Shown piece by piece: positions 1-17,634 of a stretch of DNA of 64,000 bases. The translations under genes were made by a program, and so were the position numbers. The stretch comes from Natronococcus occultus SP4 (lineage in GTDB: Archaea > Halobacteriota > Halobacteria > Halobacteriales > Natrialbaceae). Within the stretch, counting starts at the first letter, position 1. Each line of letters starts with the position of its first letter. Location: the NCBI RefSeq assembly GCF_000328685.1, contig NC_019974.1:310001-374000 (forward strand), in the 5' to 3' direction. The notes below the pieces were generated by a model that did not search any database, was not told where the DNA came from, and saw nothing but the letters and a program-made list of their open reading frames with translations.

Positions 1-1205
1 GTAATGAGAACCGGAGATTGCTTTTCACGTTGTTTTATCGCCTTGATTAGGACTAAACCTTCTCTCTCATTGATACCCTTCCCATGACGGGCAGCGTAAG
101 GTTTGAAGTGGTTCGTTGTTTGGATCACTCGCAATTTGAGGCACTCACTAACGTATGTTCGCCGTTCACGGTCGGTGAGCACTTGTTGGTGCTCGAGTTC
201 AGACCCAAGGAGAAGTTCCCATTTCGGGACCGTGGGGGTTCCATCCAAAGCAACAACGCCCTTTGCTCCATCGAGCGCAGGCGGATTTAACATGTAAAGT
301 ATGCTGTCACGGGAACTTCGGACGGCGGTACGACCATCTGATAGCCGAGTGTACTCCCATTCGTTCCTCAAATCTTCGGCCATCGCAACAGCGTAAACCA
401 TAGCAGCAGCTTCGGTGTGAATTCTTGCATTTCGTCCTTCTACAATGCCTTTTGGATCACGCGAGAGCGTTGGGTTATACAACTCAAACAAAGTCTTTGT
501 AGCTAACTGCCTGCGCCCGGTATACCGATTCTCCAGCAAATCCTCGAAATGCTCAAATGGAAGCATATCATCGCGCGAAAGGTAGTTGTTTATGGCTCGA
601 GTTACCGCTCCCACCTCAAACTTCTCTAGAAAATCGTTTTCTGGAAACTCATCAAACACAATGTAACGTCCTTCCACACGATGTGGAACATAGGCGTGCT
701 TGTAGTGGCCGATCAAAACGTCAACATCACTCTTGTTAGTGATCTGCCGGTTCGAGAGATAGGTGCACTCTCCGTTCTCCTGACAAGGGAGCTCCTTACT
801 GAAGAGATCGAATGCTTCCTCATGGATCTCGGTTCCGGTTAATCCGGCCCCGTAGTATTGGCGCATATCCTTCCTCCACTTATCACCGTGGGTTCCATTT
901 GCCGTCTCACAATCCCGATGGAATGAGGGAAGGTGATTATACGATAGATTTTGTTTTTCACACCACTCGGCGTACTGGTCATACATATCATATCGGGCTC
1001 CAAAGATCGTTAGCGGATTTCCCGTCTCAGCAGCCCACCGAATAACTCCCGAGCTCTTACCCATCGCCGGGAGTGCGTCAATTAATACGGGGTGATCAGC
1101 TCGAAAGCCATCGTCTATCGCTTCTTGGCAGCGTTCTCGAGCACTCTCTAGGGTTAATGTTGAAATGCTGGCTGAAGAGCTCTTATCTTGCTTTGTGGTA
1201 CCCAT
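1..1205 (-). CDS. Helicase-like ATPase of an integrated element, partial (runs off left edge)
   Basis: Reading the minus strand from an ATG at 1205 gives about 401 codons with no stop before the window edge, so the C-terminus is missing. A Walker A-like motif (ALPAMGKSS, residues 44-52) is followed by a Walker B-like FDEF (184-187). Four cysteines (82, 100, 141, 147) lie between them, the layout of XPD-type iron-sulfur helicases, and LIGHYKHAY before the DE box recalls the XPD 'YHYL' segment; the XPD comparison is inference. From memory, similar proteins occur in haloarchaeal proviruses and integrative elements. The gene is more AT-rich than the host genes to the right, which fits a transferred element. 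Confidence 0.7.
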   Translation of the reverse strand, partial: MGTTKQDKSSSASISTLTLESARERCQEAIDDGFRADHPVLIDALPAMGKSSGVIRWAAETGNPLTIFGARYDMYDQYAEWCEKQNLSYNHLPSFHRDCETANGTHGDKWRKDMRQYYGAGLTGTEIHEEAFDLFSKELPCQENGECTYLSNRQITNKSDVDVLIGHYKHAYVPHRVEGRYIVFDEFPENDFLEKFEVGAVTRAINNYLSRDDMLPFEHFEDLLENRYTGRRQLATKTLFELYNPTLSRDPKGIVEGRNARIHTEAAAMVYAVAMAEDLRNEWEYTRLSDGRTAVRSSRDSILYMLNPPALDGAKGVVALDGTPTVPKWELLLGSELEHQQVLTDRERRTYVSECLKLRVIQTTNHFKPYAARHGKGINEREGLVLIKAIKQREKQSPVLI

Positions 1206-1341
1206 AGCGGATGGAGAATATAGAGGCAATCGGAGAATATATCAATTCCTACAAAATTTAGAGAAGGTTGAGGAACAATCGCCATGGAGCTTCGTAATAA
1301 AGAGATAGTCAGCAGTCACGACTAATATGGTGGAGTAGGTG

Positions 1342-1932: not shown

Positions 1933-3246
1933 ATGGAAAGTAAATCGATCCAGGGTAGATGGTACAAGCCTGGAAATCCCAATAACTCAGTCCCGGGAGT
2001 TTTAGAGTATAGCCCGGAGAAGGGTGCAGAGCTCACATTGTTTGATTTGATTGGTGAGCAAAACATCGGATCTAGAAGTAGGAAATCTCTTGACGCCTTA
2101 TTTGGAGAAAGTATAAAGGGCGAGAATATAACCCTAAGAAATAATGTTCAGACAAGTGAAGGGATGAAAGGTGGAACGGGGTGGGAAACATATAGAGCAG
2201 AGGAATTGTATCTTGGTTACCATGTGTCTGAGTTTGAATTTTCGTCACTTGAGGTTGAGTATCCAGACATAGCTCCGTGGATGGAAGAACGGGCAGTGAA
2301 ATCAGGCCTTAGTATGGACGATAACACGGCAACAATTGAACAAAAGGCCATATCGCGCCCTAAAATATCAATATCCGACATATGTGATCTAAGGGTACGG
2401 CAGAAGACTGGAGTTGAAAATATAAGTACCGTTCCAAGCCCGTATGAACGAATAGTGTTTGAATTTATCTTCGATTCTAAGCAAGAGGTAGAAAAAATTC
2501 ATGAGTACATTCGGATCTTGAACGATTACTTTGCTTTAGCTTCTAAGCCAGTATTTCCAAATAGTGTTAGAATAAACTACAACGATTCCATTCTGCCAAA
2601 TGACAACATCGAATTGCTATATAAAGAACCGGACTATGTCGAGTCGTCAATCAACTTTTCGGACTGGAATTTTACTGAAAGGGATATAGATTTAGAAGAA
2701 TCGCTTTCTTCTTGGTATTCGCATTCAATGGGTGCAAGAACCTTTCACTCAATGTATTTCAGCAACCTCTACAACCCTGATATGTATTATCGATTTAAGG
2801 CATTATCATTGTTTATCGGACTTGAGTCTTATTTTGATTACGTGTCGGATGAAAAATATTTGATGGAACCTAGCGAGTATCACGATTGGCTGGATGAACA
2901 CATTCAAACAATTTCGGATGAATTTGTAGCTAAAGATCGGCTTTATAAACTTCTTCGTTCAATAGGATTTCGGTATTCTTATGGAGATAAACTAAAAATG
3001 ATAATTGATGGGTATCCGTTCTTTGAGGAAATAATAGATATTGATAGAGTGACTTCACTAATCAAAAATAATAGACATGGTATAGTTCACTCTACTTCTA
3101 TAGATGAAGATGATTTTGTGGAGGCGATGTACTATGCACAATTGTTAGCAGAGGGCATACTACTGAGTGCTGCTAAGTTAGGACCAGATCAAATCATTAA
3201 ATACTTTGATAGAAATTATAACAACTTACTCTCTAACGAAGGGTAA
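1933..3246 (+). CDS. ApeA-like HEPN ribonuclease, probable anti-virus defence protein
   Basis: The 437-residue protein begins with an ApeA N-terminal-type signature: GRWYKPGNP at 8-16, PGVLEY at 21-26, an L-rich strand, then IKGENITL at 61-68. The C-terminal third is helical and contains NNRHGIVHS, which is the HEPN catalytic pattern R-x4-H (R381, H386). In bacteria, ApeA is a stand-alone abortive-infection protein whose HEPN domain cleaves RNA. The coding sequence is clearly AT-rich (many AAA, ATA and TTT codons) against GC-rich host genes, and it sits in the tRNA-bounded island. The next gene is convergent, so the gene stands alone. Function is inferred from family pattern only. Confidence 0.75.
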   Translation: MESKSIQGRWYKPGNPNNSVPGVLEYSPEKGAELTLFDLIGEQNIGSRSRKSLDALFGESIKGENITLRNNVQTSEGMKGGTGWETYRAEELYLGYHVSEFEFSSLEVEYPDIAPWMEERAVKSGLSMDDNTATIEQKAISRPKISISDICDLRVRQKTGVENISTVPSPYERIVFEFIFDSKQEVEKIHEYIRILNDYFALASKPVFPNSVRINYNDSILPNDNIELLYKEPDYVESSINFSDWNFTERDIDLEESLSSWYSHSMGARTFHSMYFSNLYNPDMYYRFKALSLFIGLESYFDYVSDEKYLMEPSEYHDWLDEHIQTISDEFVAKDRLYKLLRSIGFRYSYGDKLKMIIDGYPFFEEIIDIDRVTSLIKNNRHGIVHSTSIDEDDFVEAMYYAQLLAEGILLSAAKLGPDQIIKYFDRNYNNLLSNEG

Positions 3247-3295: not shown

Positions 3296-3436
3296 CTATT
3301 CGTAGCAATAACATCTGAAGCAGGGGAGATCGTCCCCATAGGGACCACAGCATCCTTCTTGACCGTTCCGGCAGACGTCAGCGTAGTCGGCGAGTGTTGC
3401 GTTACTATTTTGCGAGTCGGTTGCTTTGACGGACAT
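3296..3436 (-). CDS. Small cysteine-rich protein, 46 residues
   Basis: ATG at 3436 is preceded by AGGAG with an eight-base spacing, a good Shine-Dalgarno site. The frame ends at TAG 3296-3298. The protein has an ordinary N-terminal half (MSVKATDSQ..., ADYADVC) and six cysteines in its second half (22, 29, 30, 39, 42, 44; the last three in CFRCYC), a likely metal-binding knuckle. I do not recognise the family; haloarchaea encode many zinc-binding micro-proteins of this size. It converges on the ApeA-like gene and has its own promoter and structured leader, which argues that it is expressed. A longer reading frame in another phase over the same bases lacks these features. Confidence 0.65.
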   Translation of the reverse strand: MSVKATDSQNSNATLADYADVCRNGQEGCCGPYGDDLPCFRCYCYE

Positions 3437-3460
3437 GGGTTCACTCCTAAGAACCCCGGT

Positions 3461-3550
3461 TCGGTGTCTTCAGCACCGAGCCACTTTCAGTGTGACCAAT
3501 TCCCGGAGTTCTTACTACGTACTACGGTAGCAACCCTCTTAAATATATTT
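3461..3550 (-). promoter_or_regulatory. Promoter and structured leader of the cysteine-rich micro-protein gene
   Basis: On the minus strand an AT-rich TATA element (AAATATATTTAAG) lies at 3538-3550, about 100 bases before the ATG at 3436, implying a leader of roughly 75 bases. The leader can form a hairpin, TCGGTG/CACCGA with a seven-base loop, at 3461-3479, followed by a short GAACC/GGTTC stem just before the ribosome-binding site. That stem could mask translation. Most haloarchaeal mRNAs have short or no leaders, so this one stands out. Confidence 0.45.
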
Positions 3551-3706
3551 TCTAATATCTATTACATTGGTGTTGAATATATTCAATATGGAAGAAAGTA
3601 AGGTTGCTCGAGCAAGATGATGCGCGCGCCTTCCGCGAGAGCGGTACACTTGAAAGACCACTAATTAGACGAAGATCCATAGATAGCGGGCTGCCGAGGC
3701 TCTTAA

Positions 3707-3841: not shown

Positions 3842-3927
3842 TTGCCCGAAGGGCAAGCCTAGGCCGGGATTTGAACCCGGGCTCTCGTCCTTACCAAGGA
3901 CGCGCTTTACCGCTAAGCTACCCAGGC
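3842..3927 (-). other. Probable integration junction (attachment site) at tRNA-Thr
   Basis: AT-rich accessory sequence lies immediately left of this point and GC-rich chromosome to the right, and the boundary is the 3' end of a tRNA gene on the minus strand. Archaeal tyrosine integrases commonly use tRNA 3' halves as attachment sites and rebuild the tRNA. A hairpin TTGCCC-GAA-GGGCAA (3842-3856) abuts the tRNA 3' end. The partner attachment site and the integrase would lie left of the window. Confidence 0.5.
3856..3927 (-). tRNA. tRNA-Thr (GGT), copy 1
   Basis: The minus strand folds into a full cloverleaf: acceptor GCCTGGG/CCTAGGC, D stem GCTT/AAGC, anticodon stem CGTCC/GGACG with loop TTGGTAA (anticodon GGT), and T arm CCGGG-TTCAAAT-CCCGG. 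No CCA is encoded. This copy borders the island. Confidence 0.93.
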
Positions 3928-4084
3928 GCGTAATTCTGCCTTCGGTCGAGACGAATTTATCCCTTTCGAAACCCGTCCCGCGAGCACCGACGGCGGGTGA
4001 ACCACGGCGTCGTCGACCGAGGACGTCGCCGACGCTCGCGTCCCCGTCGCTCCGAACGAAGCGTCGAACCGCAGAAACGGTGAG

Positions 4085-4156
4085 AGCCTAGGCCGGAATT
4101 TGAATCCGGGGTCTCGTCCTTACCAAGGACGCGCTTTACCGCTAAGCTACCCAGGC
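4085..4156 (-). tRNA. tRNA-Thr (GGT), copy 2
   Basis: Same cloverleaf and anticodon as copy 1. Differences are confined to the variable loop and T arm (T stem CCGGA/TCCGG instead of CCGGG/CCCGG). The acceptor, D and anticodon regions are identical. It lies 157 bases from copy 1 with host-like GC-rich sequence between. Whether both are used cannot be seen. Confidence 0.9.
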
Positions 4157-15116: not shown

Positions 15117-15916
15117 AAGGTAAGCGGCTTCGCTTCCTCCCACCGGGGTGCGAACTCCCCGTGGACGTTCGCCGCGAACTCCGGATCTTTCAGATCGATC
15201 ATGCCGAAGGCGTCGCCCGACGACAGCGGGTTCGGCACCTGGATGCAGATCTCGACGCCGTCGATGATGTTGAACGAGCCAGTCACGTCGTCGTTCGTTC
15301 GGACGTGGAAGTCGTCGCGGTTCTGCAGGGCACTCTGATACCGCGCGCCGACCCTCTCGGAGAGGGAGTCGACCATCTTCCGCGTCATCAGGATGTCGAC
15401 CGAGACGCCCCGATCCAGGGCGTCCTCGAGCTGGGCGAGGACGTCCTCGCTGACGGCCTGCATATCGCGCTCGGGGACCGGATCTGCGGCGACCATCACG
15501 ATGTGGTCGTCCGCGGCCCCCAGCCGCTCGAGCAGCAGATCGATCGTCTCCTCGGGTCCGACCGCGGCGGTCCAGAACTGCTCCTCGACGGGGTCGGCTG
15601 CGTCGAGCTCGTCGGCGAGATCGTCGACGATCGACTCGTACTGGTCGGCCTTCTCCTCGAGTTCGCGTTTCTTGTCCTCGAGGAGGCGATCGAGGGCAGT
15701 CGATGGTTCGACGGCGACGTACTTCTTCGGGCGACTTGCGGTCTGGCTGCGGACGAGGTTGTACTGTTCGATACTGTTGAGGACGTCGTAGATCCGCCCC
15801 ATCGGCACGTCGCTCGCTCTCGACAACTCCTTTGCCGTTGTGGGCCCGGTGTTCAGCAGCGCTCGATACGCCCGAGCCTCGTACTCGGAGAGTCCGAGGT
15901 CCCTAAGACTGGCCAT
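15113..15916 (-). CDS. TrmB-family transcription regulator
   Basis: A 267-residue protein with an N-terminal TrmB winged helix ([18 protein letters not shown], then [16 protein letters not shown]), a coiled-coil helix (about 80-105), and a C-terminal effector-binding domain. TrmB proteins bind promoters and respond to sugars or other small molecules. The last gene of the convergent pair with mptA, it has its own promoter region facing a divergent neighbourhood at 15917-15996. Target genes cannot be deduced. Confidence 0.87.
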
Positions 15917-15996
15917 ACTCGTAACGGCTCACCCGAGAAACAAAAACACTGTGGTGGTTTGACTCTCCCTCGATGCGACGGTGTTCACCCCGTACG

Positions 15997-17634
15997 TTAG
16001 TCGAGAATTTCCCCCACCCGCTCGCTCAACTGCTCGGGAGTTTCGGCGGGTTCGGAGCGACGGTCGCCGCGTTCGACGCGGGCGGTCCCGGTCTCGAGGT
16101 CGGCATCCGGGACGACGACCTTCTCGTGGTCCGCGAGCCGCAGCGCCGCGCGGTGGAGGTCGGAGCCGGGCGCGTCGCCGACCCGGATCGCCAGCGGTCC
16201 CTCGAGCAGCCGGCTCGTGGCTGTTCCGTACCGGGCGATCTGGACGCCGAAGCGATCGCTGGCGCCCGCGAAGTCCTCGAGAGTCTCCCTGGCGATCGTC
16301 CGATACTGTTCCTCGCCGGAAAGCACTGCCAGCTCGAGCAGTCCATCGGCGAGAGCGACGTTCGTGTCCAGGGGCCGCAGCGGGCGATCGCAGAGTCCGA
16401 CGTCCGCCGCCGCGCTGTCGATAAAGGAGTCGCCGTCGCGAAGCCGTTCGACCGTCGCGTCGGCGACCGCCTCGGCCTCGGCGACAGCGTCGGTCTCGAG
16501 GGTGCTCGCGGTCGTCGTCAACGCGCCGAGGACGCGGGCCTGAGTCGAGAGCAGCGGCGTCGGCTGGTCGTCCTCGTCGGCGGACTCGAGCTGGTGGCTG
16601 GCGACGCCGTCCTCGAGCAGCTCGCTTCGCAGCGTCGAGAGCGCGCGCTCGGCGTAGCGTCGCGCCCGCTCGTCGTCGGTGTACGCGAAGTACGTGAGCA
16701 GTCCCTCGATCGCCAGCGCGTTCGGACCGGCGAAGACGCCGTCGTCGACGGGTGGCTCGTCGGCGGCCGCGCGATCGGTCGGGTCGAGTCCGTGGCTCTC
16801 GAGGTCTCCGGGTGCCTGGCTGTTCGCGAACGCCTCGGCGTCGCCGTTCCACAGCGTCGTCGTCAGATACTCGACGGTACGCTCGGCGGGGTCGCGGTAC
16901 TCGGATTTCCCCGTCAGGAGGTAGGCGTTCGCGAACGCGCGCACGAGCGCGCCGTTGGAGTCAAGCAGCTTCTCGTGTTGCAGCCCGGACCAGTCGCGGT
17001 CAGTCGCGAACCGGTAGAACCCGCCGTCGTACTCGTCTAACAGGTTCGCGCCGACGGCGTCGAACGACCGCAGCGCCATCTCGCGGTCCCGTTTGAGGGC
17101 GAACTCGAGGGCGTCGGGCAACGGGAACTTCGGCTCGGTTCCCCAGCCGCCGGCGACCTCGTCGTAGGCCTCCTCGAGCTGGCTGAGCATCGTTCCCTCG
17201 ATGTCGTCCGTGAGCTCGCCGGCCGGGGGTTCGTCCTCGCGAATCGGTCGCGGAACACGACCCGCACCGCTGCCCTTGGTCTGCCACATCGTCCGGACGC
17301 TATCGAGGACCTGGCGCATCCCGTCGGGACCGAGGTAGCCGGCCCCGGTCAGCACGGTCCCGTCGGGTGCCAGAAAAACCGTCGACGGGAACCCGCCCAT
17401 GTTGTACCGATCGCGGACGCGTGGGTTCCGATCGACGTCGACTCGCACCGGAACGAACCCGTCGTTGATGTGGGCCGCGATCCGCGGTTCGGCGTAGGTC
17501 TCGGCGTCCATCTCGTGGCAGTGATCACACCACGTCGCGGTGAGCGCACAGAGGATCGGGACGTCCTCGGACGCGGCCTCGTCGAAGGCGTCCTGACCCC
17601 ACTCGCGCCACTCCACGCGGGTCGAATCGTTCAT
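15997..17634 (-). CDS. DUF255 thioredoxin-like protein (YyaL type)
   Basis: Starting from ATG 17634 the protein has 545 residues. The thioredoxin-like N-terminal domain carries ATWCDHCHEMDAETY (33-47), with two cysteines at C36 and C39 in CDHC, and GGFPSTVFLAPDG supplies the cis-proline. The remainder is an alpha/alpha toroid like N-acylglucosamine 2-epimerases (DELADIV-type helices, EVAGGWGTEPKFPLPD, YDGGFYRFATDRDWSGLQHEK). YyaL-like proteins are widespread but not biochemically settled. Earlier start codons in frame lie in low-complexity DNA and were not used. Confidence 0.87.
   Translation of the reverse strand: MNDSTRVEWREWGQDAFDEAASEDVPILCALTATWCDHCHEMDAETYAEPRIAAHINDGFVPVRVDVDRNPRVRDRYNMGGFPSTVFLAPDGTVLTGAGYLGPDGMRQVLDSVRTMWQTKGSGAGRVPRPIREDEPPAGELTDDIEGTMLSQLEEAYDEVAGGWGTEPKFPLPDALEFALKRDREMALRSFDAVGANLLDEYDGGFYRFATDRDWSGLQHEKLLDSNGALVRAFANAYLLTGKSEYRDPAERTVEYLTTTLWNGDAEAFANSQAPGDLESHGLDPTDRAAADEPPVDDGVFAGPNALAIEGLLTYFAYTDDERARRYAERALSTLRSELLEDGVASHQLESADEDDQPTPLLSTQARVLGALTTTASTLETDAVAEAEAVADATVERLRDGDSFIDSAAADVGLCDRPLRPLDTNVALADGLLELAVLSGEEQYRTIARETLEDFAGASDRFGVQIARYGTATSRLLEGPLAIRVGDAPGSDLHRAALRLADHEKVVVPDADLETGTARVERGDRRSEPAETPEQLSERVGEILD

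Follow-up and report, generated by a model that had tools for sequence, protein, structure and literature searches.

An ApeA-family HEPN protein carried by a small integrative element at tRNA-Thr in a haloarchaeon

Does the AT-rich gene that lies near a tRNA gene of the haloarchaeon Natronococcus occultus SP4 encode a single-protein antiviral system, and how did it come to lie there? The gene occupies positions 1933–3246 (+ strand, stop codon included) of the window, the whole 64,000-nucleotide stretch analyzed here (positions 310,001–374,000 of contig NC_019974.1). Read directly, its ATG-started open reading frame (ORF) encodes an ApeA-family protein of 437 amino acids, and the same assignment follows from Pfam and PADLOC. 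The domain family and the conserved active-site motif mark the gene as a genuine member of ApeA. As cargo of a small integrative element of haloarchaea, it quite probably encodes a single-gene antiviral system of the ApeA type that acts through a HEPN RNase-based abortive mechanism.

A preliminary description of the locus had proposed an ApeA N-terminal pattern and a C-terminal HEPN site in this protein, and the profile search that it called for bore out both. Residues 6–261 (window 1948–2715, + strand) match ApeA_NTD1 (PF18862; E 2.7e-30, 106.2 bits, profile positions 2–271 of 271), a mostly β domain according to Pfam and model secondary structure and a likely sensor or autoinhibitory module. 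Residues 291–414 (2803–3174, + strand) match the all-α HEPN_Apea (PF18739; E 9.9e-7, 29.7 bits, profile positions 1–130 of 136), so that the protein exceeds both curated cut-offs (25.5 bits for ApeA_NTD1 and 24.4 bits for HEPN_Apea). The HEPN R-x4-H active-site motif, R381-H-G-I-V-H386 (3073–3090, + strand), was located by direct reading and by alignment exactly where the preliminary description had placed it. Two PADLOC PDC-S58 models also match the protein (1.8e-22 over residues 1–341, 77.8 bits, and 5.5e-16), a family for which the scan provides no curated cut-off. "Cas13-ApeA" HEPN models strongly match relatives of the protein, and an NCBIfam scan of the protein itself gave no match.

None of the 20 aligned haloarchaeal sequences, the window protein among them, departs from Arg-381 and His-386, a constancy that implies selection for catalysis. 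Further invariant positions are G8, W10, G22, L36, G58, W116, F247, W261, and E298. The conserved aromatics W10, W116, and W261 fit the published description of ApeA-NTD1 as mostly β and poorly conserved, yet with aromatic positions that are kept (PMC3710099). This count leaves out two fragments, one homologue with a broken N terminus, and the ApeA_NTD1 protein L025:1018–2391 from genome G018 of the same haloarchaeal family. The latter has kept the N-terminal domain and lost R-x4-H, and may therefore be inactive or regulatory. The haloarchaeal homologues are only ∼19–27% identical to the window protein, and two bacterial relatives, L038 and L040, are 18–22% identical. Relatives from Chloroflexota and Bacteroidota retain the equivalents of Arg-381 and His-386, and both Pfam domains are present in each of the six relatives scanned. 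A search of genome contigs returned no match with the window protein alone as query and six loci with the alignment as query. Neither the window protein nor L038 found a viral relative in the phage collection, and none was confirmed in IMG/VR.

A maximum-likelihood tree places the window protein among 13 haloarchaeal proteins that form one branch (support 100/99), and the majority of these carry the motif RHx[IL]xH. The other branch unites the remaining haloarchaeal proteins with those of other archaea and bacteria and mostly shows RN-x3-H or a similar motif. Because the window sequence has a long branch (1.68), its exact place among the 13 is unsure.

The C-terminal domain was further characterized by structure prediction, in which all models are monomers. 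AlphaFold2, run on a seven-sequence alignment, gave a model with a predicted local distance difference test score (pLDDT) of 77.9 that is β-rich up to residue ∼230 and all-α from residue ∼254, with Arg-381 and His-386 at the end of helix 370–385. The C-terminal part modeled alone is also all-α (pLDDT 81.5). It weakly matches the HEPN-MNT toxin chains 7ae9, 7ae8, and 7ae6 (VIA; Z 5.3, 5.0, and 4.4), the best of these having a root-mean-square deviation of 5.9 over 115 aligned residues, and, again weakly, Csm6 chains (Z 3.9 and 3.7). Unrelated helical proteins are interspersed among these matches, one of them at a higher rank. Fold searches with the whole protein against PDB and BFVD gave no significant match, the HEPN part alone gave nothing better than E 1.3 in Foldseek, and a sequence search of the PDB gave no match. 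Taken by itself, the fold evidence would not decide for HEPN; what decides is the motif together with the profile match. The first β part resembles Hcp/tail-tube and PilZ-like proteins (Z up to 4.7, weak), which we attribute to a common β-barrel resemblance.

The gene was described as standing alone beside a tRNA in a tRNA-bounded haloarchaeal island. The island is real and the tRNA lies 610 bp downstream, but other genes accompany it. It comes last in a 7.4-kb integrated element that encodes its own integrase and whose left half lies outside the window. The element is bounded by an exact 34-bp repeat (34/34) of the 3′ end of tRNA-Thr(GGT), with copies 7366 bp apart. Repeat comparison places the left attachment site (attL) at C1:306490–306523 of the genome, 3.5 kb left of the window, and the right one (attR) at window positions 3856–3889 (genome 313856–313889), within the intact tRNA-Thr(GGT) gene that served as integration target (3856–3927, − strand). 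In a sister species (G007), the left flank of the element is joined directly to tRNA-Thr (83.6% over 73 bp), and this empty site shows that the insertion was precise. Direct repeat, internal integrase, and the empty site in a relative thus identify a tRNA-Thr integrative element. The AT-richness noted earlier was also confirmed, as the gene has 38% GC compared with ∼65–70% in the chromosome to its right.

The tyrosine integrase ORF lies 52 bp inside attL and is closest to pleolipovirus integrases (HRPV9, 42.6%). No capsid or spike gene was recognized in the element by Pfam and PHROGs scans. Within the element, the ApeA gene forms a single-gene unit: its upstream neighbor, at a distance of ∼700 bp, is transcribed divergently, and on the downstream side the tRNA gene follows. 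The protein occurs as a single copy in its own genome, and five annotated plasmid relatives share no common partner gene.

The same integration site is used elsewhere. In a genome from another haloarchaeal family (G277), an identical tRNA-Thr(GGT) is followed 12.9 kb downstream by the same 34-bp repeat, with an ApeA gene between the copies (L107:2764–15677). The two elements are alike in attachment sequence, tRNA, and the presence of an ApeA gene, but differ in integrase and cargo: the G277 integrase is not matched at 1e-4 by that of the window element, the cargo comprises a gene of the uracil-DNA-glycosylase (UDG) superfamily and an HSDR_N gene, and the two ApeA proteins are only ∼21% identical. 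At least two elements that bear ApeA have thus settled at tRNA-Thr(GGT). The shared site is no evidence that ApeA acts on tRNA-Thr. The preliminary description had raised a tRNA as a possible response target; none of our results points there, and the tRNA-Thr is the site of integration.

In a third haloarchaeal genome (G141, L109:10738–19039), an ApeA gene (15744–17213) adjoins an integrase like that of the window element (3.7e-96) and is also near a relative of the element's 621-amino acid protein (3.5e-22); attachment ends were not found. A preference of ApeA for the neighborhood of integrases was not seen, since an integrase ORF was present at 4 of 20 haloarchaeal ApeA loci and in 3 of 20 control stretches, taken mostly from the same contigs.

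How might such a protein work? A 2013 survey of HEPN proteins (Anantharaman et al.) proposed R-x4-6-H as a metal-independent RNase site and suggested that the N-terminal domains of HEPN abortive-infection proteins detect components of the virus and keep the RNase in check or act as antitoxin (PMC3710099). By analogy, ApeA_NTD1 of the window protein would sense a viral product and otherwise hold the C-terminal HEPN RNase inactive. Upon infection, a HEPN dimer with Arg-381 and His-386 from each subunit would cleave RNA, with host tRNA, rRNA, or mRNA as candidate substrates. The cleavage would arrest or kill the cell and thereby protect its neighbors and the resident element. More tentatively, the haloarchaea-only branch with its prevailing RHx[IL]xH motif may be specialized on archaeal viruses and have been spread by elements with recurrent use of the same tRNA-Thr(GGT) site, with a trigger and an RNA target distinct from those of bacterial ApeA; we regard this extension as possible rather than likely.

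Several observations weigh against an antiviral, RNase-based function. The HEPN domain is a diverged member of its family whose score barely exceeds the cut-off, and it has no strong structural match (none in Foldseek at E ≤ 0.001; all Z < 8). No known defense gene was identified beside ApeA in the element, PDC-S58 is itself an unvalidated candidate system, and the literature yielded no experiment on any archaeal ApeA.

The gene might instead chiefly serve the element, as an addiction or superinfection-exclusion RNase directed against competing plasmids or proviruses and not against lytic viruses. Its position inside an integrative element with a pleolipovirus-like integrase is in line with such a role, as is the occurrence of plasmid-borne homologues and of others in AT-rich accessory DNA, but the gene has no adjoining antitoxin partner or MNT gene and its N-terminal domain resembles a built-in control. 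We hold this role to be unlikely, although it overlaps with antiviral defense because an element-borne defense protects both host and element. Much less probable is an RNA-binding regulator devoid of RNase activity: inactive HEPN regulators have been described (PMC3710099) and L025 has lost the motif while keeping the N-terminal domain, but the window protein has the motif in full, and it does not vary among the other relatives aligned. We give least credence to a decaying passenger gene without current function. The long branch in the tree, the HEPN score near the cut-off, and the absence of ApeA from the eight further species sampled in the genus would fit decay, but the frame is full-length without stops, all invariant residues are retained, and a plausible promoter precedes it. 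This promoter is a candidate archaeal TATA box (gaataaatta, 1901–1910, + strand), read from the sequence ∼24–30 nucleotides 5′ of the ATG, and its position would imply a leaderless ApeA transcript. An 80-amino acid ORF at 3359–3601 had no family above cut-off and was treated as spurious. An antiviral role remains our preferred interpretation.

The remaining genes of the element encode a CARDB-matching protein with a membrane-like N-terminal stretch, a small Zn-finger-like protein, and a protein of 621 amino acids, identified by ORF and profile scans, the start half of which covers window positions 1–1229 (− strand) and which continues to the left (L004:4364–6229). The 621-residue protein has a C-terminal winged helix and is an orphan without any family above cut-off. 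Its relatives are found on haloarchaeal plasmids of 8.9 and 10.8 kb that also carry integrases, and none was found in the phage collection. Its probable role is in replication, or as a helicase-type protein, on small haloarchaeal plasmids. By eye, it shows Walker-like GKSS and DE motifs. Just past the end of its gene, left of the window, are three 27-bp direct repeats (GGGTCGCTTCGCTCCC..., L004:4120–4301), possibly iterons or merely common haloarchaeal intergenic repeats. On the other side, a second, tandem tRNA-Thr(GGT) (4084–4156, − strand), identified by tRNA call and comparison with sister species, lies outside the element and is not part of it, as the tandem pair is also present in five sister species. 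The two copies (3856–4156) are 229 bp apart and, over 114 bp that take in upstream sequence, 83% alike.

The preliminary description had suggested that a haloarchaeal version would extend ApeA to archaea, but archaeal ApeA is not new. In the 2013 survey, the ApeA/BMEI1217 HEPN family is entered as "Bacteria > Archaea" (PMC3710099), and RefSeq-derived annotation names haloarchaeal plasmid members "HEPN domain-containing protein." In the genomes sampled from the class and from the phylum, ApeA_NTD1 is carried by 24 of 391 and by 19 of 393, respectively. With archaeal members on record in literature, annotation, and genome counts, the known range of the family is unchanged, and the window gene is a solid but ordinary addition to it. 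Apart from CRISPR and restriction, the antiviral systems of archaea have been poorly tested: a 2026 survey of archaeal immunity, in which ApeA does not appear by name, reports that single-gene candidate systems are common in archaea and that most of them await testing (PMC12988326). The locus offers a clean single-gene candidate with a mobile element, attachment sites, and mutation targets, and would suit a culturable haloarchaeal host.

Compared with known systems, the window protein shares with the ApeA family (PF18862 plus PF18739) both domains, their order, the length class, R-x4-H, and the single-gene organization. It differs from the bacterial relatives L038 and L040 in its motif, RHGIVH versus RN-x3-H. 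Its PDC-S58 score is far below the 405–425 bits of bacterial members. The ApeA system was reportedly tested and validated as a bacterial defense by Gao et al. in 2020; the likeness of our haloarchaeal protein to ApeA is drawn here from family profiles and from homologues such as L038 and L040. In its presumed way of working, the closest parallel is Tha of Staphylococcus aureus prophages, likewise a lone protein on a mobile element with a C-terminal HEPN R-x4-H. The activator of Tha is a phage tail protein, and mutation of the motif histidine of Tha abolishes protection (PMC11087260). In its domain layout, the window protein has the anatomy for a Tha-like logic.
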